Below, piece by piece: positions 15,195-38,432 of a DNA stretch of 39,413 bases (the first letter of the stretch is position 1; the number at the start of each line of letters is the position of its first letter). The stretch lies in the IMG/VR virus record IMGVR_UViG_3300042477_000313, positions 1 through 39,413 of that record. One strand, 5' to 3'. Origin of the DNA: a virus. Under the pieces are notes generated by a model. The model saw nothing but the letters and a program-made list of their open reading frames with translations, searched no databases and was not told where the DNA came from. A program made the position numbers and the translations under genes.

Positions 15195-15677
15195 ATGACC
15201 GTCTGCAACACCAAGGAGCTGGCCGAGGAGCTTGGCATCACGCAGGCTCGCATCAGCCAAATGAAGAGCCAGGGCCGTTTCGACGGTTGCTTCATGGTTG
15301 TCCGCAACAAGATCGAGTGGGACAAGGAAGCAGCGGTCAAGGCGTACACCGAGGGCAACCCGCTTGTCTCAACGAGTCCCACGCGTAAGACATCCTCTGA
15401 ACTTGAGATCCCGACCTTTAATGAAAGCCGTGCGAAGTCTGAGCATTTCCGTGCCGAACTGGCTCGACTGGACCTCGAGGTCAAAGAAGATCAGCTTGTG
15501 GAGGTTTCTCGTGTGCAGCGCGAGGCTTTCACTTCTGCTCGTGCTGTACGTGATGCTTTGGGGAATATTCCTGATCGTGTCAGCAATCAGTTGGCTGCTG
15601 AGTCTGACCCGGTCGTCATCCACCAGACGTTGACCAGCGAGATCCGCAGGGCTTTGGAGACCTTGACCGATGCGTGA
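15195..15677 (+). CDS. terS: Terminase small subunit (Nu1/DUF1441-like)
   Basis: 160 aa from ATG 15195. N-terminal helix-turn-helix (TKELAEELGITQARISQMKSQ) as in Nu1, then a linker, then ESRAKSEHFRAELARLDLEV, VEVSRVQREAFTSARAVRDAL and NIPDRVSNQLAAESD, the helical part of the Nu1 and DUF1441 families. It recognises the packaging site and hands it to the large subunit. It overlaps terL by eight bases, as usual for the pair. Confidence 0.82.
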   Translation: MTVCNTKELAEELGITQARISQMKSQGRFDGCFMVVRNKIEWDKEAAVKAYTEGNPLVSTSPTRKTSSELEIPTFNESRAKSEHFRAELARLDLEVKEDQLVEVSRVQREAFTSARAVRDALGNIPDRVSNQLAAESDPVVIHQTLTSEIRRALETLTDA

Positions 15678-18158: not shown

Positions 18159-19717
18159 TGGCAATCTTCGGCATCGGGCGTACCCACGCGTTGCGTCAGC
18201 AACTTGAAGAAGCACAACAGAAGAATGCTTACTTCAAGCGTGCTTATGCCGCTGCGCAGAACAACAGACTGACATCTGATTGGATCAGTCAGGCCACTTC
18301 TGCTGACAGCGAGATCAGAGGCAGTATCAGGATGCTGCGCAATCGCGCTCGGCAACTGGTGCGTGATTCAGATTTTGCCAAGGCTGCCCTGAGAGCTGTA
18401 CGCAATAACGTCGTCGGCACCGGCATCAGGATGCAAGCTCAGGTGCGTATGCAGCGTGGTGGTCGGCTGGCTGATGACATTAATCGCCGCATCGAGGAGG
18501 AGTGGGATCGCTGGACCTCGGCAAAGCGCTGTCACACGGCTGGCAAACTGAGCTGGTACGACATTCAACGCCTCTGCATCACGTCGATGCTTGAGTCTGG
18601 CGAGGTGTTTGTGCGCCTTGTCCGTCAACCGTTTGGCAATAGCCGCGTCCCGCTGGGCATCGAGATCATTGAATCTGATCTGCTCGACGACGACTACAAC
18701 GCCATTGAGAAGAATGGCAACGAAGTGCGGATGGGCATTGAGATTGACAGGTGGGGCAGGCCCGTCGCGTATCACTTCTTTGACTACCACCCAGGCGACT
18801 ATCAGTTCTCATACGCTCAGAAAGCTGCCAAACGTCGCATCAGGATCCCCGCTGATGATGTCCTTCACCTGTATCTGATCGAACGCCCAGGGCAGACACG
18901 TGGCATCAGTGCATTTGCATCAGCGATCATGCGCCTGCGCAATCTGAGCGGGTACGAGGAAGCTGAAATTGTTGCAGCGCGTGCAAGCTCGTCGATGATG
19001 GCGTTCGTCAAGACCCCTGATCAGGAGCTTTTTGAGGATGGCACGTTTGACCAAGACTCAGTGCTCGACTTCTCACCCGGAAGCATTAGGCGTCTGGCCC
19101 CAGGAGAAGAAATGCAATTCTTTACGCCCAATCGGCCGGATGATGCGTTTACTCCTTTTGTGCAGCAAATGCTGCGAGCTGTCGCTGCTGGGGTTGGTTG
19201 TAGTTACACGCAAGTCTCAAGCGATTTCTCTCAGAGCAACTACAGCTCTTCACGTCTGGAACTGCTCGAAACAAGAACTCATTACAAAACGCTTCAGCAG
19301 TACGTGATCGAATCACTGTGCGAAGAGGTGTACGAGCGTTGGCTTGAGATGGCCGTCATGGCTGGCGTTCTGGATCTGCCGAACTACGACAGCAATCCTG
19401 ATCGCTACGAAGAAGCCAAGTGGATCGCCCCTGCTGCACAGTTTGTTGACCCACAGAAAGAAGCTGCTGCGTACAAGGATCTGATTCGCAGTGGTGTCAT
19501 GACGCTGTCACAAGTGATCGCACTGCATGGCGGTGACTTCGAAGATCAGATGCGTCAACGGCAGCATGAACTGGCAGTCGCTGATGAGCTTGGCATTGTG
19601 CTCGACACTGATCCCTCGCAAGTTTCAAACAACGGCGTTTCGCAGCCTGTTCCTGTTGCCCCAACCGAACATCCGGTAGAACATGAGGAAGAACCTGAAC
19701 TTGAGGACATTGACTGA
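18158..19717 (+). CDS. Portal protein (lambda gpB family)
   Basis: 519 aa from ATG 18158, overlapping the previous stop by one base. Features of PF05136 portals: SDSEIRGSIRMLRNRARQLV near the start, AALRAVRNNVVGTGIRMQ, and LLELSG-type patterns such as HLYLIERPGQTRGISAF and ASAIMRLRNLSGYEEAE. The DFSQSNYSSSRLELLETRTH segment and an acidic C-terminus also fit. The dodecameric ring is the packaging gate at one capsid vertex. Length is close to lambda gpB (533 aa). Confidence 0.92.
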   Translation: MAIFGIGRTHALRQQLEEAQQKNAYFKRAYAAAQNNRLTSDWISQATSADSEIRGSIRMLRNRARQLVRDSDFAKAALRAVRNNVVGTGIRMQAQVRMQRGGRLADDINRRIEEEWDRWTSAKRCHTAGKLSWYDIQRLCITSMLESGEVFVRLVRQPFGNSRVPLGIEIIESDLLDDDYNAIEKNGNEVRMGIEIDRWGRPVAYHFFDYHPGDYQFSYAQKAAKRRIRIPADDVLHLYLIERPGQTRGISAFASAIMRLRNLSGYEEAEIVAARASSSMMAFVKTPDQELFEDGTFDQDSVLDFSPGSIRRLAPGEEMQFFTPNRPDDAFTPFVQQMLRAVAAGVGCSYTQVSSDFSQSNYSSSRLELLETRTHYKTLQQYVIESLCEEVYERWLEMAVMAGVLDLPNYDSNPDRYEEAKWIAPAAQFVDPQKEAAAYKDLIRSGVMTLSQVIALHGGDFEDQMRQRQHELAVADELGIVLDTDPSQVSNNGVSQPVPVAPTEHPVEHEEEPELEDID

Positions 19718-22371
19718 TGGCCAAGGTTGGTGACAAGACGATTGACCTGATGCCAACTGAAGGCATGAAGGCCGAAGCGCGTCGTTATCGCGCATGGAAG
19801 AAAGAAGGACGCCCCGGTGGCACAGATGATGCTGCAACACGCGCAGGGCAGATCCTGTCAGGTGATGAGCTAAGCCCTGACACTGTCATCACGATGTCGG
19901 CTTGGTTTGCGCGGCATGAAGTTGACAAGCAAGGCAAAGGTTTCCGCCCTGATAGCGGTGACTATCCCTCACCGGGTCGCGTAGCATGGGCGGCATGGGG
20001 TGGCGATTCAGGGCAAACCTGGAGCAACATGAAATCCAAAGCCATCAAAAAAGCAAAGGAGCGTGCCATGGAACCGATCGTTGACGGTCGTCCCTACCCA
20101 AATGAGCATGCTGCTCGCCTGAAAGATCCTGATCAATACGACCGCATCCGCCGTGTCAATGATGAATTTGGCGCTGGCATCGACGCGATCTACGGCATCA
20201 AGGATGAAACTGCTGAACTGCAGGCAATTCGTTTTGACGCTGATCGTTTCACACCCGCTGAAGCCCGTGAATGGTTGAGCGATCACGATTACAGCCCAAT
20301 GGAGTTTGAGGAAGCCACTGGCGAACGCAGCCAGAAACGCGCTGCTCCCGATGCGGTTAAAGTTGGCGATTTCGTGGAATGGGATTCAAGTGGTGGTGCC
20401 GCACGCGGCAAGGTGGAGCATGTAATGCGTGAAGGTGTACTTGGTGTTCCAGATTCTTCGTTTAGTATTAATGCATCTGAAGAAGATCCCGCTGCATTAA
20501 TTCGCGTGTACCGCAAAAATGACGACGGTGACTACAAAGAGACCGAAACGTTGGTCGGTCACAAGTTCTCTGAGCTGCGCAAAATTTCTGCACTGCGTTT
20601 CTTTGAAGGCGAAACACTGAAGCGTTCACTTGCAACTGAGTTCCGCGCTGAAGGTGAAGAGCGCACGCTTGAGTTCCCCTTTGCCAGTGAGGCTCCTGTC
20701 GAGCGCTACTACGGCATGGAAGTGCTGTCGATGGATGACAAGTCGATGGATCTTCGCCGCTTGAACGATGGCGCACCGCTGTTGTATCAGCATGATCCCG
20801 ACAAGATCGTTGGCGTTGTACAGAAGGCGTACATTAAAAACAAGCGTGCTTATGCACGAGTGAAGATCGCCAACAACGAGCTTGGTCGTGAAATGCAAGA
20901 TCTGATCAAGGACGGAATTATCCGTAACGTCAGCTTCGGTTACAAGATCAATTCCATGGAAACCGATGAGTCCACTTCCCCAGTGACTTATCGGGCAACC
21001 AGCTATGAGCCATTTGAGATTAGTCTGGTTACCGTGCCTGCTGACAACTCAGTGGGCATAGGACGCGCTTTCTCCCATAATGAGAGCGTCGAAACGGCCT
21101 CAGCCGTTAAACAAACTACAAACGGAGTTACAACCGTGGATCAACCCCTCAATCTTGAGGCTATCCGCGCTGAGGCCGCTCAGGCCAAGGCTAAGGAAGT
21201 GGCCGACATGATCGCCCTTGGTCAACGCACCAAGAACATTGAAATGGCTCAAGAGTTTATTGCAAACTCCCGTAGCCTCGACGAGCTGCGCTCTGCCCTT
21301 CTGGAGAAGATGGGTGTTCAAGAGAAGCCTGTGAATCCTAAGGACGCCGAAATCGGCATGTCTGACAAGGAGCGCCGCAACTTCTCCTTCATCCGCGCTA
21401 TCAACGCTCTGGCCCATCCCAATAGCCAGGAAGCTCAGCGTGCTGCTGGTTTCGAGATGGAAGTCAGCCGTGCTGCTCAAGAGAAGAGCGGTAAGGAAGC
21501 TCGTGGCATCCTGATCCCTGCCGATGTGCTGGGCTATGGCCGTCGCGACCTGACTGTTGGTTCGGCTTCGGGTGGTGGTGATCTGGTTGCCACTGATCTG
21601 ATGAGCGACAGCTTCATCGACCTGCTGCGCAAAGCTCTGGTGCTGCAAAGCGCTGGTGCGACCATCATGACCGGTTTGCAAGGCATGGTTGCTCTGCCCC
21701 GTCAATCGGGTGGCGCCACTGTGTATCACGTTGCTGAGTCGGGTTCGATCAACGAATCCCAGCTCACCGTTGATCAGGTGACGATGCAGCCCCGCACCAT
21801 TGGTGCTCTGACTGATTACAGCCGCCGTCTGCTCCTGCAGTCCAGCATTGACATCGAGAACCTCGTTCGTCGCGACCTGGCTCAGCAGATTGCTATCGAG
21901 GTTGAGAATCAGGCCATCAACGGCACCGGCACCGGTTCCTACCCGCTGGGCTTCCTCAACGTGACCGGCATCAACACCGAGTCCGGTTACACCACGTTCG
22001 CTGATTATGTGAACGCTGAGGCCGCTCTGAGCACCGACAACGCCCTGCTGGGCACCCTCGGTTACATGATGAATTCCTCCCTGCGCGGAACTCTGAAGGT
22101 CACCGAGAAGTCGGCAACCGGCACCAGTGCCAACTTCATCTACGAAGCCAACAACACCATCAACGGTTACTCGGCTTACGTGTCGAACTCCATGCCGAAC
22201 AACACTGCGGTGTTCGCTAACTTCAGCGACATCATGATCGGCTTCTGGAGTGGTCTGGACATCATGGTTGATCCTTACACCGGCTCTGCTTCTGGCACGG
22301 TTCGTGTGGTGGCCATGCAGGACTACGACGTGGCTATCCGCCATCCTGAGTCGATCTGCAAGCTGTCCTGA
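19717..22371 (+). CDS. Protease-capsid polyprotein with XkdF- and Tudor-like modules
   Basis: 884 aa. Modules in order: residues 1-115 a basic domain found on phage protease starts (MPTEGMKAEARRYRAWKKEG, then WAAWGGDSGQTW); about 165-200 an XkdF-like piece (RFTPAEAREWLSDHDYSP); about 213-290 a DUF2945/Hva1-Tudor-like fold (VKVGDFVEWDSSGGAARGK... LVGHKFSELRKI); about 305-450 an HK97-type S78 protease with His359 (YQHDPDKIVG) and Ser406 (NVSFGY); a helical scaffold-like region about 455-590; then the HK97-fold major capsid protein from about 593 (GILIPADVLGYG, AGATIMTGLQGMVALP). Cleavage near 590 should free the shell protein. Confidence 0.88.
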   Translation: MAKVGDKTIDLMPTEGMKAEARRYRAWKKEGRPGGTDDAATRAGQILSGDELSPDTVITMSAWFARHEVDKQGKGFRPDSGDYPSPGRVAWAAWGGDSGQTWSNMKSKAIKKAKERAMEPIVDGRPYPNEHAARLKDPDQYDRIRRVNDEFGAGIDAIYGIKDETAELQAIRFDADRFTPAEAREWLSDHDYSPMEFEEATGERSQKRAAPDAVKVGDFVEWDSSGGAARGKVEHVMREGVLGVPDSSFSINASEEDPAALIRVYRKNDDGDYKETETLVGHKFSELRKISALRFFEGETLKRSLATEFRAEGEERTLEFPFASEAPVERYYGMEVLSMDDKSMDLRRLNDGAPLLYQHDPDKIVGVVQKAYIKNKRAYARVKIANNELGREMQDLIKDGIIRNVSFGYKINSMETDESTSPVTYRATSYEPFEISLVTVPADNSVGIGRAFSHNESVETASAVKQTTNGVTTVDQPLNLEAIRAEAAQAKAKEVADMIALGQRTKNIEMAQEFIANSRSLDELRSALLEKMGVQEKPVNPKDAEIGMSDKERRNFSFIRAINALAHPNSQEAQRAAGFEMEVSRAAQEKSGKEARGILIPADVLGYGRRDLTVGSASGGGDLVATDLMSDSFIDLLRKALVLQSAGATIMTGLQGMVALPRQSGGATVYHVAESGSINESQLTVDQVTMQPRTIGALTDYSRRLLLQSSIDIENLVRRDLAQQIAIEVENQAINGTGTGSYPLGFLNVTGINTESGYTTFADYVNAEAALSTDNALLGTLGYMMNSSLRGTLKVTEKSATGTSANFIYEANNTINGYSAYVSNSMPNNTAVFANFSDIMIGFWSGLDIMVDPYTGSASGTVRVVAMQDYDVAIRHPESICKLS

Positions 22372-23280: not shown

Positions 23281-23919
23281 ATGAGCAGCATTTTCAAGGT
23301 CAACACCAGAGCTAATTGGGCAAACCTCAATCCCGTGTTGCTTCCGGGTGAGACTGCCGTTGAGACACAAACCAATAACGTCAAAGTTGGAGACGGCGTT
23401 TCCGTTTGGAGCAAACTGCCGTATTTCTCCTCGCCAGGGTATTGGGGTTCGTTTTGGGACGACACGTCGCAGACAGCAACGGCTAACACACCAACTGCGA
23501 TTTACCTGCGTCAACGTGATACGGGCAGTCGAGGTGTTCGCGTTGTTTCTGGCACTCGCATCACGTTTGATTATGCTGGTGTTTACAGCATTACGTTCTC
23601 AATTCAATTCAGTAATACGGACAGCAGCATTCACGATATCAACGTTTGGTTGCGCAAGAATAACGAAGGCAGCGCTGGTAACGTGCCGGCTAGCGACAGC
23701 CGATTCAGCATCATCGCAAAGCATGGCAACGTTGACGGCAACGTGATCGGCTGCGTCAATTTTGTGTTGCCAATTGTTGCCGGTGATTACTTGGAGCTGA
23801 TCTGGGCGACATCTAACGCTGACGCTTACATTCATGCTGAATCGGCAGAGACCAGCCCCTTTGCTCATCCAAGCATCCCAGGGATTATCTGCACTGTTGT
23901 TCAAGTCGCTTCTGCCTGA
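23281..23919 (+). CDS. Mtd-N-type adhesin with jelly-roll C-terminus, 212 aa
   Basis: ATG 23281. Residues 1-50 (NTRANWANLNPVLLPGETAV, NNVKVGDGVSVWSKLPYF) match the N-terminal domain of phage tropism determinants and fibre proteins. Residues 65-212 are a beta jelly-roll of the C1q or receptor-binding type (FDYAGVYSITFSIQFSNT, GDYLELIWATSNADAYI). Its place inside the head-tail joining genes is unusual for a fibre protein. It may be a capsid-bound fibre or a tail-collar adhesin. Confidence 0.6.
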   Translation: MSSIFKVNTRANWANLNPVLLPGETAVETQTNNVKVGDGVSVWSKLPYFSSPGYWGSFWDDTSQTATANTPTAIYLRQRDTGSRGVRVVSGTRITFDYAGVYSITFSIQFSNTDSSIHDINVWLRKNNEGSAGNVPASDSRFSIIAKHGNVDGNVIGCVNFVLPIVAGDYLELIWATSNADAYIHAESAETSPFAHPSIPGIICTVVQVASA

Positions 23920-26087: not shown

Positions 26088-28681
26088 GCCAGGTCACTGA
26101 ACTGCTGGTACGGATCAAGGAGCAGGGCGGTGAGCAGCTCACACGGCTTCAAGGCAGCCTGAAAAATCTTGCGCAACAAACTGCTGCAACAAATATTAAC
26201 TTCAAGGAGGCGTCTGCAGAGCTTCGTAGGATTCAGCAAACGTCAACGCAAAGTATCAACAACCTGAAAGGGTATTCGAGTGCTTGGCGTGAAATCGCGA
26301 ATAGCGTTGACATTGCAAGTGCTGAGTTCAAGCAAGCAACAGCAGAAGCTGATCGCCTTGATCGTCAACTGAATAAGATTCAGGGTCGTTCTGGTGGGCG
26401 TGGTGGCCTCGCAAAGGGTGCTCAGATTGCTGGCACGATTGCTGGTGCTGGCGTCTTTGGCGGCCTTGAAGGCGCTCTGGGTGCTGGTATTGGTGGTGTT
26501 GTTGGCGGTGTTCCTGGTGCGATCACTGGTGGTGCAATTGGTGCGCAAGTTGGTGCTCTTCGTCAGGCCGTAGGCGCAATCGCTGAAAATATTGCAGCGC
26601 TGAATAAGTATCGAATTGCGCTAGCTGGCGTCAGCAAAGATCAAGATGATTACAACGAAAGCATTAAAGCAGTCAGCGGATTTTCGAAACAATTTTTACT
26701 GCCCCTGAGTCAGACGACTGAGCAATACACACGACTGAAGGCAAGCATTATTGGCGCTGGGCTAAGTACAAAAGAAACCAACGTTGTCTTTCGTGGTATT
26801 TCTGCTGCAATCATTGGCACTGGTGGAAACGCCGAGAAGCTCAACGCAGCGTTGAATGCTACTTCGCAGGTCTTTAGCAAGGGCAAGGTTAGCGCTGAAG
26901 AATTAAGACAGCAGATTGGTGAGCGGTTGCCTGGTGCATTCACAATTTTTGCGCAGTCGTTGAATAAGACACCTGCTGAACTCGACAAGGCATTGGAAGA
27001 CGGCAAGGTTACTCTTGCTGATTTCTTGAAGTTCAGCGAGGAACTGTTTAAGCGTTACGGCAAAACTGCTGAGATCTTGGCATTAGCACCTGAAAATGCA
27101 GGCGCACGGGTGAAGGTTGCATTGGAGTTAGCTGGTGTCAGCTTTGGTGGCTTCTTCCAGGTTGTTGGCGCTGGATTCCAAAATCTGATTGCAGGTGTGT
27201 TGTCATGGGCGCTTGAGAATGAAACATCAATCAAGAGAGTTGTCACCATTTTTGCGATTGGATTCACAGAGCTAGGCAAGATTGTTGGCGCATTTGCAAA
27301 GTTCCTTGTCGGTGTTTTTAATACAGCATTTTCAACATTGCTTGGGAACCTTGATACTGTTTTGCAAAGGATTGAAGCGGCAATCAATCGCGCTAAAGCA
27401 GTTCAATCTTTAACGCCACAAAGAATTTCTCAATTCCAAGAGCAAGCACGTAAGGCGACCAACGAAAGGTTTGGCGGTCCCGCTGGCTTGTTTACTTTCT
27501 TGCGTGCTGGCGAGGCTGATAAGTTTTACAACCAATATTTTGACAATCTTGTTGACAAGGCGACTAAGTCTGCAGGGGCCAAGAAATATACGGATACCGT
27601 CAGAAATGTTTTGTTCCCTGAATTTACACCCTCGTCATTTGGCACTGGCCTCGGCAATCAACAACTCGCATCTCAGCTTGCGGGTGGTGCCGGTGACGCT
27701 GCTGCAGCAAAAGCCAAGAAAGGCAAAGAGATTGTTGATCGTACAGATGAAGAGTTGAAGCTAATCAGGGAGATCAATCGCCTGCGTCGTGAAGGGCTGG
27801 ATACTGAGGCTGAATTTGTTGAGTTTGAACTGCGCAAAATTGAGATCGCGCTTGATTTGGATGCCAAGCGTATTGGGACCAATCGTGCAATTGAGAGAAG
27901 CGAGGAGAACAAAACAAGATTGGCACAAGCGTTGCAAAACGCGTTTAAAGGTTATGGCGACGAAGTACTGAAATCATTGTCAGTGCAGCTTGAAGTCAAT
28001 CGCGCAATTCAAGACGCTGAAATTAAAGCTGGAATCATCACTCAAGAAAAAGCAAAGCAATTGCTAATTGAAAGACAAATTGCTGATTTTGTTACACGCT
28101 ATCCAAGTGCATCTGCTGAGGCCGTTGAAAGATTCAAGGTTGCAATTAGCACCTCTAAGAAAGAGTTGACAGAAGCTGAGCAGCTTGGGAAATCTGTTGT
28201 CACAACGTTTGCAGATGGACTTTCATCGGCTTTTGATTCCTTGTTTGATCGCGCCAAGAGCTTTAACGAAATCCTTAAGGATGTGCTGCGTTCTACTTCA
28301 AAACTGTTGTTCCAGTTTGCCTTGAAGGGAGCGTTGAAGGGTTTGTTCCCTGGTCTGGGCTTTGCTGATGGCGGCATCATGACTAGCAATGGTCCAATGC
28401 TGCTGAAGCGTTACGCCGCTGGTGGTATCGCAAATTCACCGCAGCTTGCCATGTTTGGTGAAGGCAGCCAGCCAGAAGCGTATGTGCCCCTCCCTGATGG
28501 CCGTACAATCCCTGTGACGATGAAGAATGGTGGCAGCACCAATGTTGTCGTGAACGTTGACGCAAGGGGCAGTAACGTGCAAGGTGAACAAGGGGAAAGC
28601 GCTGCTCTAGGTCGTGCTGTTGCCGGTGCTGTGCAGGCAGAATTGATTCGTCAGAAGCGTCCTGGAGGCTTGTTAGCGTAA
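26084..28681 (+). CDS. H: Tape measure protein (H-like), 865 aa
   Basis: ATG 26084 overlaps the T stop. Long helices (residues 1-120), a Gly-rich hydrophobic part (about 125-165), a TIGR02675-like domain (about 205-320: SQTTEQYTRLKASIIGAGLS, VSAEELRQQIGERLPGAFTI), a hydrophobic region (about 340-385) and a C-terminal part with FADGGIMTSNGP and FGEGSQPEAYVPLPDG, typical of lambda-type tape measures. Length is close to lambda H (853 aa), so the tail should be about as long as lambda's (around 150 nm). It is exported into the host at injection. Confidence 0.93.
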   Translation: MSQVTELLVRIKEQGGEQLTRLQGSLKNLAQQTAATNINFKEASAELRRIQQTSTQSINNLKGYSSAWREIANSVDIASAEFKQATAEADRLDRQLNKIQGRSGGRGGLAKGAQIAGTIAGAGVFGGLEGALGAGIGGVVGGVPGAITGGAIGAQVGALRQAVGAIAENIAALNKYRIALAGVSKDQDDYNESIKAVSGFSKQFLLPLSQTTEQYTRLKASIIGAGLSTKETNVVFRGISAAIIGTGGNAEKLNAALNATSQVFSKGKVSAEELRQQIGERLPGAFTIFAQSLNKTPAELDKALEDGKVTLADFLKFSEELFKRYGKTAEILALAPENAGARVKVALELAGVSFGGFFQVVGAGFQNLIAGVLSWALENETSIKRVVTIFAIGFTELGKIVGAFAKFLVGVFNTAFSTLLGNLDTVLQRIEAAINRAKAVQSLTPQRISQFQEQARKATNERFGGPAGLFTFLRAGEADKFYNQYFDNLVDKATKSAGAKKYTDTVRNVLFPEFTPSSFGTGLGNQQLASQLAGGAGDAAAAKAKKGKEIVDRTDEELKLIREINRLRREGLDTEAEFVEFELRKIEIALDLDAKRIGTNRAIERSEENKTRLAQALQNAFKGYGDEVLKSLSVQLEVNRAIQDAEIKAGIITQEKAKQLLIERQIADFVTRYPSASAEAVERFKVAISTSKKELTEAEQLGKSVVTTFADGLSSAFDSLFDRAKSFNEILKDVLRSTSKLLFQFALKGALKGLFPGLGFADGGIMTSNGPMLLKRYAAGGIANSPQLAMFGEGSQPEAYVPLPDGRTIPVTMKNGGSTNVVVNVDARGSNVQGEQGESAALGRAVAGAVQAELIRQKRPGGLLA

Positions 28682-29016
28682 TGGCCACATTCACCTACGT
28701 CCCCAGCTTCAGCGCTACTGAGCAGAGCCAGCCGCGTGTCAGGCGTGTTCAATTTGGCGATGGCTACGAGCAGCGTTTGCGTTACGGATTGAATGTTGAT
28801 GCAAAATCATGGCAACTATCTTTTACCAATCGCACAGATACTGAGCGCGACAATATCTTGTCATTCCTTGAAGCGCGTGCAGGTGTTGAAAGTTTTGATT
28901 GGACACCCCCTCGTGGTACGGCGGGTAAATACATCTGCAGCGAATGGGCAATGGAAATGGTGAATTACAACAACAACACAATCACCGCGACCTTTGTGCA
29001 GGTGTTTGAACCATGA
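28681..29016 (+). CDS. M: Minor tail protein M, 111 aa
   Basis: ATG 28681, overlapping the tape measure stop. The features FSATEQSQPRVRRVQFGDGY, QRLRYGLNVDAKSWQLSF, ARAGVESFDWTPPRG and NNNTITATFVQVFEP are the pattern of phage_min_tail (gpM). Lambda M is 109 aa. It helps build the tail tip on which the tube grows. It is in the M-L-K-I-J order. Confidence 0.9.
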   Translation: MATFTYVPSFSATEQSQPRVRRVQFGDGYEQRLRYGLNVDAKSWQLSFTNRTDTERDNILSFLEARAGVESFDWTPPRGTAGKYICSEWAMEMVNYNNNTITATFVQVFEP

Positions 29017-30557
29017 GCGAGATGTTTCAGGAGCTGCTCAGCTCCAACCCCTACGCGATCATCGAGCTGTTCGAGTTGCACCTTGACGCTTCGCTGCACG
29101 GCACGACTGAGATCGTTTACTTCCACCCTGGTGCGAATCAAAAGACCCCATCAGGAAACATCATCTGGAAGAGCAAGCCATACCAAGCACTGCCGATTGA
29201 GGTCGAGGGCTTTGAGTATAACGGCACTGGCCAGCTCCCACGGCCGAAAGTGCGCGTCTCGAACCTGCTCGGCAACATCTCGGCGCTGTTATTGAGTGTC
29301 AATAGTTTCACGATTGGCAATGACCTGACAGGCGCGAAAGTCATCAGGATTCGCACGTTGAGCAGGTTCCTCGACCCTGTCAATTTCACTGATGGCGTCA
29401 ACCCTTATGGCGTACCGGCTGACGAGGAGATGCCACGTGAGATCTACTACATCGACCGCAAGTCAGTTGAGAACAGGGACGTTGTTGAGTTTGAGTTGGC
29501 GGCTGTGTTCGACCTGGCTGGCGTGCGTGCACCAAAACGGCAGGTGATCGCGAACATCTGTCAGTGGAAATATCGCAGCGCCGAGTGTGGCTACACAGGC
29601 AGCAACTACTTTGATGAGTATGACAATGCCTTGGGGGCCACACCTGCAACCAACTTCAACTCAACCGCATTTGGCGCTCAGCTCAACGTCAACGAGACGC
29701 TGAATGAAGGCGACGCGATTGTTTCGTCAAATGGTTGGTATCGGGCGCTCATGCAGGCTGATGGCAACTTCGTGGTCTACAACAAGGCGAACGTGCCTGT
29801 CTGGGCGACTGGAACAAACCGTGGTGACGGCACTTGGCGGATCACAATGCAGGCTGATGGCAACCTAGTTATCGCCAATGGCAGCAGCGCGGTCTGGGCC
29901 AGCAACACAGTAGGCACCGCATCACCAACGGGTTTGGCATTCCTTGGCTGGTATCCAACCAACGTGTTGAATGGCCGCTCTGGTGGCTTTGGTTGGGAGT
30001 GCGTTGGATCATCACCTGCTAGTGCGGGATTGACTAACACGCAGACGGAAACGTTCACGGTCAGCGGTCGCACGATTACGGTTCAGTTCACCTTCACGTC
30101 TGCTGCGCTGCCTGTCGATCACTACACAGGTGAGTCGTTCGCTTGGAACATCATCAGCAGTCAGTCAATCAGCAGTTCAACAGGCAGCTACTACCAGGGA
30201 GAGGTGATCAACCTGCCCAAGACTCTGAGCAGCAACAACCCGTTTAGAAACAATCACCCAACGCTGGGCACCATGACGGAGGCAGGTCCGCAGTATGAGA
30301 TCACAGGCGTCAGCGGCAACAGCAACAACAGACTCAGCATCACGACGACCGGTCAGCTCATTGTGTACACAGGCGCCAATACACCGCTCTGGACATCCAG
30401 CTACGCCAGCGCTGTCGAACCTCTGGTGCAGACCGGCACCGTTGACCCGTTGCGTGATGTATGTGGCAAGCGGATCAGTTCATGCAGGAAACGCTTTGGT
30501 GAGTTCAACGACTTACCCTTTGGATCATTCCCAAGTGCTGGTACCTTCTACGGATGA
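29013..30557 (+). CDS. L: Tail tip protein L with inserted bulb-lectin-like domain
   Basis: 514 aa, twice lambda L (232 aa). Residues 1-200 match gpL, with Cys183 and Cys192 (ICQWKYRSAECGYTG); the last 35 residues carry Cys484 and Cys491 (VCGKRISSCRKRFG). In lambda four such Cys bind an Fe-S cluster. The extra roughly 280 residues lie exactly between the two pairs. At 248-288 they hold MQADGNFVVYN and MQADGNLVIAN, the first matching the mannose-lectin motif QxDxNxVxY, and a third degenerate repeat at about 455-475. This is a clear insertion of a carbohydrate-binding module in a tail tip. Confidence 0.85.
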   Translation: MSEMFQELLSSNPYAIIELFELHLDASLHGTTEIVYFHPGANQKTPSGNIIWKSKPYQALPIEVEGFEYNGTGQLPRPKVRVSNLLGNISALLLSVNSFTIGNDLTGAKVIRIRTLSRFLDPVNFTDGVNPYGVPADEEMPREIYYIDRKSVENRDVVEFELAAVFDLAGVRAPKRQVIANICQWKYRSAECGYTGSNYFDEYDNALGATPATNFNSTAFGAQLNVNETLNEGDAIVSSNGWYRALMQADGNFVVYNKANVPVWATGTNRGDGTWRITMQADGNLVIANGSSAVWASNTVGTASPTGLAFLGWYPTNVLNGRSGGFGWECVGSSPASAGLTNTQTETFTVSGRTITVQFTFTSAALPVDHYTGESFAWNIISSQSISSSTGSYYQGEVINLPKTLSSNNPFRNNHPTLGTMTEAGPQYEITGVSGNSNNRLSITTTGQLIVYTGANTPLWTSSYASAVEPLVQTGTVDPLRDVCGKRISSCRKRFGEFNDLPFGSFPSAGTFYG

Positions 30558-31264
30558 CACACTGGAAACATTACGCGCTGGAACATGCGCTCAAGGATGC
30601 ACCACGCGAGGCGTGCGGGTTGGTCGTCGTCATCAAAGGCCGCGAACAGTATTGGCCATGCAAGAACCTGGCACCCGCTAAGGACTTCTTCATCCTTGAC
30701 CCTGACGATTACGCCGCTGCAGAGGATGCTGGCGAGGTGATCGCCGTGTTTCATAGCCACCCGCAGACACCTGCGCAGCCAAGCCAAGCCGATCGTATGG
30801 CCTGCGAAAAGTCTGGGCTGGTCTGGCACATCTGCAACCCTGGCACTGAGATGTGGTGCAAGATCGAGCCAGAGGGTTACCAGGCGCCGCTGATCGGGCG
30901 GGAGTGGGTGTGGGGCGTGAGCGATTGCTGGACGCTGGTGCGGGACTGGTACAAGGAGGAGATGGCGCTTGACCTGCCCGACTGGGAGCGGCCTGCATCA
31001 CTGCTTGAGTTTCATAATGCCCCGATGTTTGAGCGGTGCTTTGCTGAGGCAGGCTTTGAAGACCATGGCATCAATGAGCCTGAGCATGGCGACGCGATCC
31101 TGATGCAACTTGATGGGTCACCCGGCTTGAACCATGTGGCCGTGTATGTGGGAGAGCAGCGCATCCTGCATCATTTGCGTGGGCGGCTCAGTAGCCGTGA
31201 CATCTGGGGTGGCTACTATCAGAAGAGCACAGGCTTGATCGTCAGGCACAGGAGCAGGTGTTGA
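30554..31264 (+). CDS. K: Tail tip protein K: JAMM plus NlpC/P60 peptidase
   Basis: 236 aa, ATGA-coupled to L. N-terminal MPN/JAMM domain with His67, His69, Ser77 and Asp80 (HSHPQTPAQPSQAD). C-terminal NlpC/P60 domain with Cys125 (VSDCWTLVRDWY) and His194 (LNHVAVYVGE). Both zinc-peptidase and cysteine-peptidase motifs are intact. Lambda K has the same two domains. It acts in the tail tip, probably opening the cell wall or processing tail proteins. Confidence 0.92.
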   Translation: MTHWKHYALEHALKDAPREACGLVVVIKGREQYWPCKNLAPAKDFFILDPDDYAAAEDAGEVIAVFHSHPQTPAQPSQADRMACEKSGLVWHICNPGTEMWCKIEPEGYQAPLIGREWVWGVSDCWTLVRDWYKEEMALDLPDWERPASLLEFHNAPMFERCFAEAGFEDHGINEPEHGDAILMQLDGSPGLNHVAVYVGEQRILHHLRGRLSSRDIWGGYYQKSTGLIVRHRSRC

Positions 31265-31265
31265 G

Positions 31266-31859
31266 ATGTTCCGCGTCATCAAGGTTTACGGCAAGCTGGC
31301 AAAGCATCTAGGGCAGCGCAGCTTCAAGGCTGCTGTGAAGACCCCGGCCGAGGCGATCCGGTTCCTACTTGCCAACTTCCCTGACCTGCGTGGTGTGCTG
31401 TCAGAGGGCGACTACAAGGTCACCGTGGGCAGAAATCAGCTTGACCTAGTTGACCATCCAGAGCATTTGCACTTTCCTGTTGCCAGCCAAGAGCCGATCA
31501 GGATTGTCCCGGTGATCGCTGGCGCCGAGGGCGTTGGGCAGGTCCTTGCGGGTATAGCGCTGATTGCTGCTGCAATCTTTATTCCTGGCCTTGGTCTGGG
31601 CCTTGCTGGTGCAACCGTGACGCAGATTGGTCTATTGGGTGGGGCGCTTGTGCTGGGCGGACTGTCGCAAATGTTGACCCCTACGCCGACAATTAAACAA
31701 GGCATGGATGGTGACAACGACCCGCGTAAGTCGTACAGCTTCAGCGGCATTCAGAACGTCTCGCGTCAGGGCGTGCCTGTGCCAATCATTTACGGCGAAG
31801 TGTTTACTGGAAGTATTGTCGTTTCGGCTGGCATCAATACTGAAGAGGTTGCGTCATGA
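31266..31859 (+). CDS. I: Tail assembly protein I, 197 aa
   Basis: ATG 31266. It has RVIKVYGKLAKHLGQRSFKA and PAEAIRFLLANFPDLRGVL, a beta-grasp start, a central hydrophobic Gly/Ala part (residues 93-140: VGQVLAGIALIAAAIFIPGL) and a C-terminal PIIYGEVFTGSIVVSAGI, all typical of lambda_tail_I. Lambda I has 223 aa. It is needed for tail tip assembly. It overlaps J by four bases. Confidence 0.9.
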   Translation: MFRVIKVYGKLAKHLGQRSFKAAVKTPAEAIRFLLANFPDLRGVLSEGDYKVTVGRNQLDLVDHPEHLHFPVASQEPIRIVPVIAGAEGVGQVLAGIALIAAAIFIPGLGLGLAGATVTQIGLLGGALVLGGLSQMLTPTPTIKQGMDGDNDPRKSYSFSGIQNVSRQGVPVPIIYGEVFTGSIVVSAGINTEEVAS

Positions 31860-34800
31860 CGAAGCGTTTGATCGCTGGTGCTGGCGGCGGCGGTGGTGGC
31901 GGTGGCAAAGGCGGTGGCGGTGGCGGTGGCGGCGGTAGTGCAAACGTCACAAAAGACAATCTTGATTCACGTCAGGTAGCGCGGATTATTGACCTTCTTT
32001 GTGAGGGTGAGATCGAGGGATTCCCATCTGCTCGTGGTTACACGCTGGGCACGACGGAATACAACATTGCGATGCTGAAAGATGTCTATCTCAACAACAC
32101 GCCGATCCTTCGCTCGACTGCCAACCCGTCCGCCGTTCAGGCTTCTGATTACAACTTCGACACAACTGGCGGCGTCTTTGAGTTTCGCACTGGCACGCAG
32201 AATCAGACCTATACGCAGAACGTAGGCGACGCCAACCAAAGCACCACAGTCGTCAACACCAAGGTCACCTATAACTCTCCTGTTACGCGGTCGATCACTG
32301 ACCCTGATGTCAACGCTGTTCGCGTCACGATCGGCACGCCTGCACTTCAAATCTTCAAGAACAACGGCGATGTTGAGGGCGCTGTCATTCAATACAGGAT
32401 TCAAACGTCATACAGCGGTGGGCCATTCTCAACTGTTGTTGAAAGTGAGATCAAGGGCCGCACGGCTGATCTGTATCAACGCATTCATCGCATTGACCTG
32501 ACCGCAGCCCCGCCGGTTGACATCCGCGTCGTGCGTGTCAATGCAGATGCTGCACCATCAGGTGAGCAGACAGAGAACAGCGACTTTTATTGGTACGACT
32601 ACACCGAAAAGATCAACGCCAAGACCACCTACCCCAACAGCGCACTGTTCGCCGTCAAGCTCAGCGCTGAACAGTTCAACAGCATCCCCTCGCGCTCGTA
32701 TCGCCTGCGTGGCCTCAAGGTGCGCATCCCTAGCAATGCCACCGTCAACCAGACCAACGGCCGTCTGATCTATGCGGGCACATGGTCGGGCAACTTTGGC
32801 GCAGCACAGTGGACAACAGACCCTGCGTGGATCCTGTGGGACCTGCTGACCAGCAAGCGGTACGGGTTTGGTGATCACATCGACGCGGCACAACTTGACA
32901 AGTGGAGCTTCCTTGCCGCTAGTCAATACTGCACCGAGGTGGTCTCTGATGGGAAGACAGGCCAGGAGCCGCGCTTCTCGTGCAACGTCGTCATTCAGAC
33001 GCAGCAGGAAGCGTTCAAGCTGATCAGCGATCTGTGCTCAGTATTTCGCGCCATGCCGTTCTGGGCTAATGGCACGCTTGAGATCGCGCAGGACCGGCCG
33101 CAGGACTACAGCTACATCTTCAACCAGACCAATGTCACCGAGGAAGGATTCAGCTATAGCGGCAGCAGCCTAAAGACACGGCACACCGTCGCTGTTGTGC
33201 AATATTTCGACATGAACCTGCGCGACCTTGCCTATGAGGTGGTCGAAGACAAAGAGGGAATCAACAAGTTCGGTGTCGTCAAAACGGAGATTTCAGCGTT
33301 CGCCTGCACCAGCCAGAACCAAGCCCGCCGCGTTGGCGAGTGGCTGCTGTATACCGAACAGAACGAGACTGAGGTCGTCAGCTTTAAGACGGACATCGCC
33401 GCAGGTATCACGGTCCGGCCTGGTGACCTGATCAAGATTGGCGACCCTGTGCGTGCTGGTGTGGTGCGCTCCGGCCGCTGCACAAGTGGTTCAACAACGA
33501 CGGTGGTCAAGCTCGACCGCGATGACGTTGCACTGTTCCCCAGCGGCCCGCCGAATGACTTCACGTTCAACGTGCTGTTGCCAGATGGCACCTTGGCAGT
33601 GGTTGCCGGATCGAATCTGGTTGGCAACTCAGTCAGCACTGGCACGGTCTTGACTGCAGCGCCTGTTGCTGGTGCGCCGTGGACCATTGGCGATTCCGCC
33701 GTTCAGATGTCAACGTGGCGGGTGTTGACGATCAAGGAGGAAGGTGACGCCTTTGCTGTCACGGCTGTTGCCCATAACCCAAGCAAGTATGACTACATCG
33801 AGCGGGACATCCCCCTAAGCCAGCGCGACGTATCAGACCTGAACGAACCGCCCGAAACGCCAACCAACCTAGGCGTCAATGAGGTGCTGTACGAAAGCAA
33901 CGGGCAGGTGCTGTCGAAGCTGATCATCGGCTGGCGTGCGGCTGCTCGTGCTCTCAGCTATGAGGTGCGCTACCGCTACAACAACGGCAACTGGGTGGCG
34001 AACACGACCCGCTCGGTTGACTTTGAGATTGCCAACAGCGACGTTGGCCGCTACGAGATCGAGGTGACAGCACTGGGCGCGATCAACAGCAAGCGCTCGA
34101 CACCCGCCGTCAAGACCTTCGACGCGATCGGTAAGACCGCACCACCTGCCACGATCCCTGACCTGTTCATCGCCCCGATCGACGAGCACACGGCTGAGCT
34201 GTACTGGCCGCAGGCGGTTGACCTGGACGTGAAGATCGGCGGCAAGATCCGCATCAGGCACACGCCTATCACGGATGTCACGGCGACATGGGGCAAAGCG
34301 AACGACATCGTGCCAGCCGTTGCAGGCAGCAGCACACGCAAGATCGTGCCACTGCTTGAGGGCACCTACTTCATCCGCGCTTTTGACTCGCTCGGCAATG
34401 AATCATCAGGCGTGGCCACAGTCGTGGTTGACCTGCCAGCTCCTCAGGACCTGCTGCTGGTACAGGAATACAGAGAGGAAGACAACAGCCCGCCGTTCAA
34501 TGGCACCGGCACAAACCTGTACTACAACGAGGCCGAGGTGGGCCTGGTGCTGGCGGCGGATGAGCTGGTCGATGACATGGCCACCGACAACAACTGGGAC
34601 GGCCTGGGCCTGATCGACTACATCGGCGGTTCAGCCAGTGAGGGCAGCTACCAGTTTTACGAAACGCTGGACCTTGGCGCCACCTACGACCTTGGCCTGC
34701 AGCAGATCCTCAAGACACGCGCCTACGAGCCGGGCAACACATGGGACGAACGCCTTGACCTGATTGATCTGTGGGATGACATCGACGGTGATGACCTTGG

Positions 34801-35239
34801 CGCGGCCAACTGCCAACTGTTTGTCAGGACCACTGGCGACAACCCGTCTGGCACCCCGACCTGGGCAAGCTGGCAGCCGTTTGTGAACAACACCCACCGT
34901 GGGCGCGGGTTCCAGTTCAAGGTTGTGGCCACCACCACCAACGCGGCGCAGAACGTGGTGATCGAGGAGCTGGGCGTGATCACGCAATTTGAGCGGCGCA
35001 CAGAGCAGCAGCGCAACTTGAGCAGCGGCGCCGGAGCGTATGCGGTCACATTCCCGACAGCGTTCTACGGCACACCAAGCGTGGGCATCACCGCGCAGGA
35101 CATGGCGACGGGTGACTATTTCACGGTCGGCAGTATCAGCAGAACTGGCTTTACAGTGACCTTCCGCAATAGTGGCGGTAGCATGGTGAGCAAGACCTTT
35201 GACTACCAGGCCGTCGGTCACGGCAGGCAGATCACCTAA
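31856..35239 (+). CDS. J: Central tail tip / host specificity protein J, 1127 aa
   Basis: ATG 31856. The start has a Gly run (GAGGGGGGGGKGGGGGGGG, from GGC/GGT repeats at 31877-31937), then the J core (DSRQVARIIDLLCEGEIEGF, YRLRGLKVRIPSNATV, EIAQDRPQDYSYIFNQTNVT). Fibronectin-III-type modules lie at about 660-760 and 770-855. Residues about 1059-1127 (AVTFPTAFYGTPSVGITAQD, MATGDYFTVGSISRTGFTV, FRNSGG) form a small beta domain common at the ends of fibre proteins. J sets host specificity and contacts the outer membrane receptor. Length is close to lambda J (1132 aa). Confidence 0.93.
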   Translation: MTKRLIAGAGGGGGGGGKGGGGGGGGGSANVTKDNLDSRQVARIIDLLCEGEIEGFPSARGYTLGTTEYNIAMLKDVYLNNTPILRSTANPSAVQASDYNFDTTGGVFEFRTGTQNQTYTQNVGDANQSTTVVNTKVTYNSPVTRSITDPDVNAVRVTIGTPALQIFKNNGDVEGAVIQYRIQTSYSGGPFSTVVESEIKGRTADLYQRIHRIDLTAAPPVDIRVVRVNADAAPSGEQTENSDFYWYDYTEKINAKTTYPNSALFAVKLSAEQFNSIPSRSYRLRGLKVRIPSNATVNQTNGRLIYAGTWSGNFGAAQWTTDPAWILWDLLTSKRYGFGDHIDAAQLDKWSFLAASQYCTEVVSDGKTGQEPRFSCNVVIQTQQEAFKLISDLCSVFRAMPFWANGTLEIAQDRPQDYSYIFNQTNVTEEGFSYSGSSLKTRHTVAVVQYFDMNLRDLAYEVVEDKEGINKFGVVKTEISAFACTSQNQARRVGEWLLYTEQNETEVVSFKTDIAAGITVRPGDLIKIGDPVRAGVVRSGRCTSGSTTTVVKLDRDDVALFPSGPPNDFTFNVLLPDGTLAVVAGSNLVGNSVSTGTVLTAAPVAGAPWTIGDSAVQMSTWRVLTIKEEGDAFAVTAVAHNPSKYDYIERDIPLSQRDVSDLNEPPETPTNLGVNEVLYESNGQVLSKLIIGWRAAARALSYEVRYRYNNGNWVANTTRSVDFEIANSDVGRYEIEVTALGAINSKRSTPAVKTFDAIGKTAPPATIPDLFIAPIDEHTAELYWPQAVDLDVKIGGKIRIRHTPITDVTATWGKANDIVPAVAGSSTRKIVPLLEGTYFIRAFDSLGNESSGVATVVVDLPAPQDLLLVQEYREEDNSPPFNGTGTNLYYNEAEVGLVLAADELVDDMATDNNWDGLGLIDYIGGSASEGSYQFYETLDLGATYDLGLQQILKTRAYEPGNTWDERLDLIDLWDDIDGDDLGAANCQLFVRTTGDNPSGTPTWASWQPFVNNTHRGRGFQFKVVATTTNAAQNVVIEELGVITQFERRTEQQRNLSSGAGAYAVTFPTAFYGTPSVGITAQDMATGDYFTVGSISRTGFTVTFRNSGGSMVSKTFDYQAVGHGRQIT

Positions 35240-36048
35240 TGGCACAGGCAACTGACTACAACATTGCAAACCAGTCAGGCGCCAACTTCCGCGCTGAGCT
35301 GAACACGATCCTTGCAGCGGTCGTCAGTCAAAACTCTGGCTCTGCAGCACCGACCACCACCTACGCGTACCAGCTTTGGATTGATACAGGCGCCAGCCCG
35401 AACCCACTGCTGAAGCTGCGCAACGGTGCAAACAGCGCATGGATCACGATCGGTGATGTGACCGTCGCCAACCTTGGTCTGGCTGCTCTATCGGGTGCAA
35501 CCTTTACGGGCGACATCACGCTCAACGCTCAGTCTGACCTGCGGTTTGCGGACTCTGATAGCAGCAACTGGGTCGCGCTGCAGGCACCTGCCACTGTTAG
35601 CAGCAATGTTACGTGGACCCTGCCCGCTACGGACGGCAGCAGTTCACAGGCACTGAGCACCAACGGCAGCGGCGTGCTGTCCTGGGCGAGCTTTGCAGCA
35701 CTGGCCACAGCGCAGACGTTCACCGCTGCTCAGAGGGGCACCATTTCAGCGCTGACTGATGGCGCAACGATCACGGCAGACTTTGCACTGGCGAATAATT
35801 TTTCAGTCACGCTGGGCGGCAACAGGACCCTGGCCAACCCCAGCAATCTGACAGCAGGGCAAAGCGGCGCGATCTGGATCACGCAGGATGGCACCGGCAG
35901 CAGGACCTTGGCGTATGGCAGTCAGTGGGATTTCACAGGTGGCACTGCGCCGACGTTGACTACTACTGCTGCTGCTGTTGACTGCCTGGTGTATGCCGTG
36001 CAGAGCAGCACCCGTATCACCGCCACCCTGATCACCAACCTGAGCTGA
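35239..36048 (+). CDS. Tail fibre protein, 269 aa
   Basis: ATG 35239. It begins DYNIANQSGANFRAELNTIL, then QLWIDTGASPNPLLKLRNGA, SAWITIGDV, an N-terminal region common to cyanophage fibres. It continues with GATFTGDITLNAQSDLRFAD and PATDGSSSQALSTNGSGVLS, beta-helix-like repeats. The C-terminal part (LANNFSVTLGGNRTLANPSN, GQSGAIWITQDG) is a small beta domain. It probably attaches to J and carries the large adhesin at 36048. Confidence 0.72.
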   Translation: MAQATDYNIANQSGANFRAELNTILAAVVSQNSGSAAPTTTYAYQLWIDTGASPNPLLKLRNGANSAWITIGDVTVANLGLAALSGATFTGDITLNAQSDLRFADSDSSNWVALQAPATVSSNVTWTLPATDGSSSQALSTNGSGVLSWASFAALATAQTFTAAQRGTISALTDGATITADFALANNFSVTLGGNRTLANPSNLTAGQSGAIWITQDGTGSRTLAYGSQWDFTGGTAPTLTTTAAAVDCLVYAVQSSTRITATLITNLS

Positions 36049-38432
36049 TGCTGGTCCCCGGTTCCGCTAACCCGCTCCTGCTTCGTACTGTCGCTGCTGC
36101 TGCAGGGGGTATCTCACGTTCGCTGCGTTTCAATAGTAGTGACAGTGCCTACTTGTCCCGCACCCCCGCATCAGCCGGTAACCGCAAGACCTGGACCTGG
36201 GCGGGGTGGGTGAAGCGGAGTGCGTTGGGCGCAAATGGATATCTACTTGAGGCTGGGGCTTCTGATACAGCATCAGCTCGTTTCCTTATTCGATTTAGTT
36301 CGGATAACACTCTTCTTATCACACGTGGGCAAAATGCAGACCGTATTACTTCACAGGTCTTTAGAGACGTTTCTGCGTGGGGGCATCTAGTTGTTACTGT
36401 TGATACGACTCAGGCAACAGCCAACGACAGAATTAAAGTATATATAAACGGTGCGCAGGTAACCGCTTTTTCAAGTACCTCTAATCCGGCGCAGAATGAT
36501 GATCTTGGCGTAAACGCAGCAGCCGTACACGCCATAGGGCGTAGCAACATTGACTCTGGAGACTACTTCAACGGCTACCTAGCCGACATCTACTTCATCG
36601 ACGGCCAAGCGCTGACCCCCAGCAGCTTCACCGAAACCGACGCCACCACCGGCCAGCTCATCCCCAAGGCGTTCTCGGGATCATACGGCTCGCAAGGTTG
36701 GCATCTGGAGTTCGCGGACAACAGCAGCAACACCGCGACCACATTAGGGAAGGACACTAGTGGCAACGGGAATAACTGGACGCCGAACAACCTGTCGGTC
36801 ACCGCTGGTGCAGGCAACGACTCCCTCGTAGACGTTCCCACTAATGGGGCGCAGACGGATACGGGCGTGGGGGGTGAGGTTAGGGGGAATTATGCGACGC
36901 TCAATCCCCTCAGCAAGCAAGCCAACTGCACGTTGAGCAACGGAAACCTCGACTGGACCGCCACTAGCACTGGGTCGGTCATCGCTCAGAGCACTATCGC
37001 TATTAGCAGTGGCAAATGGTACTGCGAATTTACGGCCACTAGCGCCTCTAATATGTTCGGCTTACAGCGAGCCGCGGGCACGGTTGCAACAACTTTTATC
37101 GGTGGCAACGCTGATAGCTGGGGTTACTACGCAGACAACGGGAACAAGTACACAAATAACAGCGCAACATCTTACGGCGCCTCATACACTACAAACGATG
37201 TTATTGGTGTTGCTTTTGATGCCGACGCTGGAACGCTTACTTTTTACAAAAACGGCGCGAGTCAAGGGCAGGCGTATTCGGGTCTAACAAACGGGCCGTA
37301 TACGTTCGCCACAGGAAATGGTGGCAGCACAAGTGCGGTCTTTAACGCAGGTGCCCGCCCCTTCGCCTACACGGCCCCCAGCGGCTTCAAGGCGCTCTGC
37401 ACGGCAAACCTGCCCGCGCCACTAGTCACAAAGCCTAATACGGTGATGGATGTGGCGTTGTACACCGGCAATGGTTCGGCCCGCAGCATCACCGGCCTAG
37501 GTTTCAATCCTGATCTGGTGTGGATCAAGTCGCGCTCGGCAGCCACTGATCACGAACTGACCGACAGCGTGCGTGGCACTACCAAGAGCTTGAGCAGCAA
37601 TTTGACGGCAGCAGAAGCCACTGACACGGGTGGTCTGACCGCGTTCAACAGTGATGGCTTTTCGCTGGGTACCGACACCAAGTACAACAACAACGCCGCC
37701 ACATACGTCGCCTGGTGCTGGGACGCCGGAAGCTCCACCGACACCAACAACACAGCAGGCACGATCACGCCGACAGGTGTCAGGGCCAACGCGACGGCGG
37801 GGTTCTCGATTGTTACTTATACCGGAACCGGCGCTAATGCCACGGTTGGGCACGGGTTAGGCGTTGCGCCACAGATGATTATCGTAAAAACTAGAAGCGC
37901 GGGGAACTCATGGAAGATTTATCACTCGGGACTAACAAGTGCTGCATATAATCTGGAGTTTACAACTGGCGCCCAGTTAAACGAACCGCAGAGCTGGAAC
38001 TCGACGGCCCCTACGTCAACAGTCTTTTCCGTTGGAACGCAAAACTCTACTAACCAGAGCGGCGCAACCCAAGTCGCCTACTGCTTCGCCCCAGTAGTCG
38101 GGTACTCTAGTTTTGGCAGCTACACCGGCAACGGCAGCACGGATGGGCCGTTTATTTATACCGGATTCAGGCCAAGATGGGTGTTAATCAAGGCCAGTAG
38201 CACAACAGGTGAATGGGGTATTTGTGACTCAGCGAGGGATACTTATAACGTTGTCAGCAATGTTCTCCTTGCCGAGAGTTCTGGCTCAGACAACCCCGGC
38301 CTTACCCTTATGGATTTCACAAGCAATGGATTCAAACTGAGAAATACAAACGCAGTTCGCAATGGCAGTGGTCAAACCTACATCTACGCCGCCTTCGCCG
38401 AGTCACCCTTTAACTACGCCCGCGCCCGCTGA
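36048..38432 (+). CDS. Large adhesin: LamG, SPRY and three C-terminal repeats
   Basis: 794 aa, overlapping the previous stop by one base. Residues about 18-200 are a LamG/concanavalin-like domain (SLRFNSSDSAYLSRTPASAG, WTWAGWVKRS, FNGYLADIYFIDGQ). About 320-460 is a SPRY-like domain (WYCEFTATSAS, DVIGVAFDADAGTLTFYKNG). From about 465 to 794 there are three repeats of 'YTGxG...G(F/L)xP..V.IK' (starting near 469, 588 and 691), resembling DUF7483. Most likely it binds a sugar or protein on the host surface. Such proteins are common in cyanophages and rarely studied. Confidence 0.75.
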   Translation: MLVPGSANPLLLRTVAAAAGGISRSLRFNSSDSAYLSRTPASAGNRKTWTWAGWVKRSALGANGYLLEAGASDTASARFLIRFSSDNTLLITRGQNADRITSQVFRDVSAWGHLVVTVDTTQATANDRIKVYINGAQVTAFSSTSNPAQNDDLGVNAAAVHAIGRSNIDSGDYFNGYLADIYFIDGQALTPSSFTETDATTGQLIPKAFSGSYGSQGWHLEFADNSSNTATTLGKDTSGNGNNWTPNNLSVTAGAGNDSLVDVPTNGAQTDTGVGGEVRGNYATLNPLSKQANCTLSNGNLDWTATSTGSVIAQSTIAISSGKWYCEFTATSASNMFGLQRAAGTVATTFIGGNADSWGYYADNGNKYTNNSATSYGASYTTNDVIGVAFDADAGTLTFYKNGASQGQAYSGLTNGPYTFATGNGGSTSAVFNAGARPFAYTAPSGFKALCTANLPAPLVTKPNTVMDVALYTGNGSARSITGLGFNPDLVWIKSRSAATDHELTDSVRGTTKSLSSNLTAAEATDTGGLTAFNSDGFSLGTDTKYNNNAATYVAWCWDAGSSTDTNNTAGTITPTGVRANATAGFSIVTYTGTGANATVGHGLGVAPQMIIVKTRSAGNSWKIYHSGLTSAAYNLEFTTGAQLNEPQSWNSTAPTSTVFSVGTQNSTNQSGATQVAYCFAPVVGYSSFGSYTGNGSTDGPFIYTGFRPRWVLIKASSTTGEWGICDSARDTYNVVSNVLLAESSGSDNPGLTLMDFTSNGFKLRNTNAVRNGSGQTYIYAAFAESPFNYARAR

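Follow-up and report, generated by a model that had tools for sequence, protein, structure and literature searches.

A predicted bulb-type lectin, split by an inner domain, lies between the Fe-S cysteine pairs of a lambda gpL homologue

The gpL homologue and its tail-gene neighbourhood

The window (the whole stretch of DNA analysed, 39,413 nucleotides of the IMG/VR virus record IMGVR_UViG_3300042477_000313) carries a run of tail genes on its forward strand whose order, M-L-K-I-J in profile searches, is that of lambda. An intact ORF of 514 aa (29013..30557) matches Pfam Phage_tail_L (PF05100; E 4.7e-55, 186.5 bits, curated cut-off 25) as well as phrog profiles. It is preceded by a homologue of gpM (distal tail protein, 28681..29016; PF05939, E 7e-31) and followed by homologues of gpK (JAB and NlpC/P60 domains, 30554..31264; profile match), gpI (tail assembly, 31266..31859; phrog_32, E 4.5e-48), and gpJ (central fibre, 31856..35239; phrog_31, E 6e-204; FNIII-A_GpJ). 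Profiles, alignments, and gene order identify the ORF, at the level of sequence, as the gpL subunit of the tail-tip hub in an uncultured lambda-like siphophage. The core of the protein (residues 1-205, 29013..29627; PF05100), made up of an HDI-type beta-sandwich and the first half of the Fe-S domain, superposes in the predicted model on lambda gpL (8iyk_L; Z 11.3, 145 residues, VIA-align), while alignments place the second half of the Fe-S domain and the C-terminus at residues 478-514 (30444..30554). At the C-terminus of the gpJ homologue (residues 1063-1111), a weak match to H-type lectins (E 0.0018, below the cut-off) may represent another sugar-binding module at the tip.

Several other features of the window were recorded. 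The terminase large subunit (15670-17583) contains a match to a TFIIS-like zinc ribbon (E 9e-5), which may be one of the metal boxes mentioned in the initial annotation. An 884-aa ORF (19717-22371) combines a prohead protease domain (S78, residues 353-445) with a major capsid domain (620-883) in a protease-capsid fusion and also contains a TUDOR-like match. The N-terminal domain of the major tropism determinant is found in the head-tail region (23281-23919; Mtd_N, E 6.6e-8), and a putative fibre with SPRY and DUF7483 domains (36048-38432) has relatives in Pelagibacter, Roseobacter, Methylophilales, and cyanophages. As to the host, no tRNAs were found that could serve as a clue. Assignment from the MAG contig L166 was rejected, its translation showing gpL fused, partway through the lectin, to a TonB-receptor-like sequence.

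In lambda gpL, Cys173, Cys182, Cys205, and Cys212 hold an Fe-S cluster in the tail tip (PMC10721106). The initial annotation equated them with two cysteine pairs of the window protein, and the alignment bears this out: Cys183 (29559..29561), Cys192 (29586..29588), Cys484 (30462..30464), and Cys491 (30483..30485) correspond to the lambda residues in that order. All four are invariant among the 62 distinct relatives on which the conservation counts of this study rest (62/62), whereas the unrelated Cys330 is often lost. The window gpL has 291 residues between its two pairs and lambda gpL 22, so that about 270 residues are in excess; the insert itself comprises 272 residues (~206-477). By analogy with lambda, the window gpL would hold an Fe-S cluster as well. 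Members of the gpL family without a cluster are already known (Tam 2013, as cited in a later paper).

Two hubs with a comparable anatomy have been described by cryo-EM. The Fe-S/ion-binding domain of the RcGTA hub (Rcc01696, g13; residues 143-167/250-263) encloses an oligosaccharide-binding domain (168-249; PMC7296036), and that of the roseophage R4C hub (142-161/244-266) does likewise (162-243; PMC10276861); the cluster was seen in both. They resemble the window protein in being gpL-type hubs with an extra domain between two Fe-S segments; their inserted domain is an oligosaccharide-binding domain of ~82 residues, whereas the insert of the window, with 272, is predicted to be a bulb lectin that is itself split. 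The presence of a domain at the same site with the cluster formed supports the anatomy proposed here and lowers its novelty. As the Fe-S segments of the AlphaFold2 model have low confidence (pLDDT <50), it is these two structures that suggest that the Fe-S halves may join across the insert.

Predicted bulb-type lectin fold of the insert

A bulb-lectin domain between the cysteine pairs had been proposed from two QADGN repeats (residues 248-252 and 280-284). The repeats are not a chance resemblance: phmmer detects gastrodianin-4 (E 7e-15) and pyocin L1 (E 6e-17), the matches to these and other bulb-type lectins cover residues 222-300 (E ~1e-14 to 1e-17), and Pfam B_lectin is found in 26 of the 27 family members scanned (E<=0.1). 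The B_lectin match of the window protein itself (E 5.6e-7, 30.5 bits) lies just below the curated cut-off of 32.4. Because the inner domain breaks up the profile match, and the score is a threshold rather than a structural feature, a lectin fold is claimed here and not formal Pfam membership.

The AlphaFold2 model, based on a 27-sequence alignment of the window protein and its relatives from uncultured viruses, has a pLDDT of ~90 over residues 210-475 of the insert. Gastrodianin (1xd6) superposes in its entirety on model residues 221..466 (110/110 residues, 1.5 A, Z 19.1, VIA-align), so that no part of the predicted beta-prism II lectin is missing: repeats I and II (residues 206-300, 29628..29912; phmmer, Pfam, AlphaFold2, VIA-align) precede the inner domain, and repeat III (residues 436-470, 30318..30422) follows it. 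A fold lacking the beta-prism lectin, the outcome that the initial annotation had named as a refutation, was returned by neither AlphaFold2 nor VIA-align. Its guess that the lectin may itself be interrupted also proved right, because a domain of ~134 residues splits the lectin after repeat II; the "other beta part" corresponds to residues ~301-434, and the "weak third repeat" to ~436-470.

The sugar sites follow the QxDxNxVxY pattern. Motif I (QADGNFVVY, residues 248-256, 29754..29780) is perfect in the window and in 58 of 62 relatives. Motif II (QADGNLVIA, residues 280-288, 29850..29876) is perfect in 52/62, the final Tyr being replaced by Ala in the window; two perfect sites are present in 50/62. 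The motif of repeat III, which completes the fold of the model, is degenerate in the window and perfect in 4/62, some relatives having the canonical QNDGNLVLY or a similar sequence; this identifies residues ~436-470 as a lectin repeat independently of the model. According to the prediction, the insert thus carries a complete but split beta-prism II lectin, a candidate sugar-binding domain. The suggestion of a module of sugar-binding type at the tip of the tail agrees with a lectin fold in gpL, the tip location being extrapolated from lambda.

LlpA, pyocin L1, and the plant monocot lectins share the beta-prism II fold and the QxDxNxVxY sites. Unlike the window lectin, they are free-standing, uninterrupted domains, and LlpA is a tandem that kills bacteria; the window gpL contains a single split lectin, unlike the LlpA-type tandem, in which two B-lectin domains are uninterrupted and no phage structural domain is present.

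The inner domain and its exchange

The inner domain (residues ~301-434, 29913..30314) is located between repeats II and III. When its ~134 residues were predicted alone, the mean pLDDT was 91 (AlphaFold2). No counterpart in the PDB was found by sequence profile, by VIA (best Z 4.1), or by Foldseek (best E 0.65), which could have missed a known fold; two viral models from BFVD match most of the domain (E 2.6e-5 and 8.7e-5, TM ~0.8). In the model, the lectin is interrupted after repeat II by this separate domain. Confidently predicted yet unmatched in the PDB, the inner domain is a candidate receptor-binding head.

Comparison of related phages reveals different histories for core, lectin, and inner domain. 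L217 and L228 have 95% identical cores and inserts identical at 49-57% over their whole length, whereas L217 and L215 share 73% of the core and 92-95% of the insert. The informative sites of L217 outside the insert agree with L228 in 148 cases and with L215 in 25; inside the insert the counts are 16 and 333 (Fisher p 3e-83). In L233 and L244, the core and lectin are 92-95% identical and the inner domain 50%, L244 being nearer to another lineage there (p ~1e-49). Close to the lineage of the window itself, exchange affected a shorter stretch as well, residues 356-392 (p 2e-17). The Fisher values assume independent sites and are a rough guide only. Both whole inserts and, separately, inner domains have been moved by recombination, as expected of a host-recognition module.

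Other modules at the same site

The loop between the cysteine pairs was surveyed in loci that a DNA pattern for the second pair had picked out, a sample biased towards that motif. Among the matches listed, at least 110 gpLs have both pairs, with a spacing of 21-22 residues in 89/110, 28-34 in nine, and more than 100 in 12. Nine of these 12 contain lectin inserts; of the other three, one has an S-CBS4-like insert, one shows weak similarity to beta-barrel repeats (E1_FCCH, below the cut-off), and one consists of tandem FNxxYYL repeats with no Pfam match. An excess of such length elsewhere, from the start of the core to the first cysteine, occurs in one sampled gpL only among those listed. One of the nine lectin-bearing proteins, the 946-aa gpL of L454 (reverse strand), has an insert of ~700 residues with seven B_lectin-matching stretches (E 2e-30) and a part resembling the inner domain. 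The insertion site between the Fe-S cysteine pairs is therefore a hotspot, also for modules unrelated to lectins.

One of the unrelated modules belongs to gp036 of Synechococcus phage S-CBS4, a gpL in which this site holds an insert of ~240 residues, whose sequence reads as coiled-coil-like arms around a small domain. Such gpLs form their own family (spacing 247-275 residues), and kinship of their insert with the lectin insert was rejected by profile comparison (hhalign probability 0.4%). Lambda gpL (spacing 22 residues) and T1 gp36 have the core fold and four cysteines of the window protein, and lambda also its gene order, but both are without an insert. In the upper baseplate protein gp50 of JBD30, metal is likewise bound by four cysteines, and the gap among them is wider (156 to 238); no lectin has been described in it. 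Carbohydrate modules inserted in Dit are known from Gram-positive phages (PMC8540738). The evolved Dit of siphophages of lactic-acid bacteria resembles the window gpL in bearing a carbohydrate-binding module within a tail-tip scaffold protein, while both the protein and the module differ, and the hosts are Gram-positive.

Single-sequence tblastn, a method of limited reach, found no cultured phage with a window-type insert at E 1e-3. A longer lectin query retrieved only four Pseudomonas phages. In the two of them whose gene neighbourhoods were examined, Riah (L460:3998-4552) and Pacha_bin_1 (L461:3944-4816), the B-lectin genes are not among the annotated tail genes, that of Riah being near the CI repressor; they are perhaps lectin-like bacteriocin cargo. 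Judged by the papers searched, what is new here is a lectin of this type, interrupted by a domain whose fold is unknown, together with exchange at two nested levels and the variety of modules that a single site can hold.

Other variations of gpL were seen. The Prochlorococcus phage MED4-184 protein (L077:2986-3558) is without the Fe-S cysteine pairs, as is that of the marine virus AG-345-A17 (L075:1486-2478), which has roughly 100 extra core residues elsewhere. An N-terminal extension of ~60 residues (W..STAFSVGDIRR...) is common in environmental gpLs (L343, L344, L386, and others); the one extension scanned gave no significant Pfam match.

Conservation, selection, and proposed function

The Fe-S domain of this gpL is divided by a cassette in which one part is nested in another, the inner domain lying between repeats II and III of the lectin. 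We propose, with a probability of about 0.68, that this cassette is an exchangeable host-adhesion module present in three copies per tip. Mean nucleotide identity, which is lower in the insert (54-60%) than in the core (72%), is in line with this proposal. Lambda gpL forms a trimer, and its Fe-S domain is exposed on the outside of the tip (PMC10721106); three cassettes would therefore face the cell surface, a location and copy number that we infer by analogy. The lectin would bind surface glycans reversibly (mannose- or rhamnose-like sugars of LPS or capsule). By analogy with pyocin L1, whose ligand is D-rhamnose in LPS (PMC6240691), it probably binds a mannose-like sugar. The inner domain, which varies more, would refine the choice of target, and specificity would be changed by swapping either the cassette as a whole or the inner domain by itself. 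Sugar binding and host recognition are thus putative roles of the cassette.

Some observations count against an adhesion module: in the window, site II is without its Tyr and site III is degenerate, and recognition may be mostly the work of gpJ and two other putative fibre genes. Moreover, beta-prism II domains can bind proteins rather than sugars, as does the N-terminal domain of LlpA (PMC6240691). The lectin might be a non-binding scaffold that holds out the inner domain on a stable platform, leaving that domain to bind the host by itself (perhaps through a protein receptor). Exchange has affected the inner domain more than any other part, the damage to site II and repeat III of the window would fit a platform, and one lectin domain of the lectin-like bacteriocins recognises a BamA loop (PMC6240691). 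A scaffold would not need its sugar motifs, however, and motifs I (58/62) and II (52/62) are much better preserved than the remainder of the domain: for the ten residues that form the sites in repeats I and II, conservation averages 0.95, compared to 0.71 in the rest of the segment, a level reached by none of 20000 random residue sets (0/20000). We consider the scaffold explanation unlikely.

A loop that accepts many unrelated inserts might also accumulate domains neutrally, with no role in infection. Nevertheless, dN/dS is 0.02-0.09 in every region (0.065 in the lectin, 0.086 in the inner domain), no positive selection on the insert was seen by dN/dS, and all complete relatives found by the full-length query have kept the insert. 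Low dN/dS, invariant cysteines, and conserved sugar motifs together place gpL, including its insert, under purifying selection, and neutral accretion is improbable. The least credible explanation is the iron-linked infection raised in the initial annotation, in which the Fe-S cluster and the lectin would form an iron-dependent switch: nothing but the closeness of the Fe-S cysteines speaks for it, these cysteines are the ordinary gpL set (89/110 of the listed matches have the 21-22 spacing without an insert), some gpLs are without them altogether, no iron-sensing element was found, and the excerpts on RcGTA and R4C, which share the split Fe-S domain, describe no such role.

A broader version of the adhesion-module reading could go either way: the loop may be a general exchange site at which environmental siphophages take up host-recognition modules of several unrelated types, and the inner domain a receptor-binding head of new fold, nested in the lectin and swapped independently of it. 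If the adhesion-module reading is true, lambda-like tail tips would have a conserved and recognisable place for the adhesion modules of uncultured phages, and host-recognition domains could therefore be read from metagenomes by means of one cysteine spacing. The natural swap set, in which the same core carries another insert or the same lectin another inner domain, could test which part decides the choice of host.
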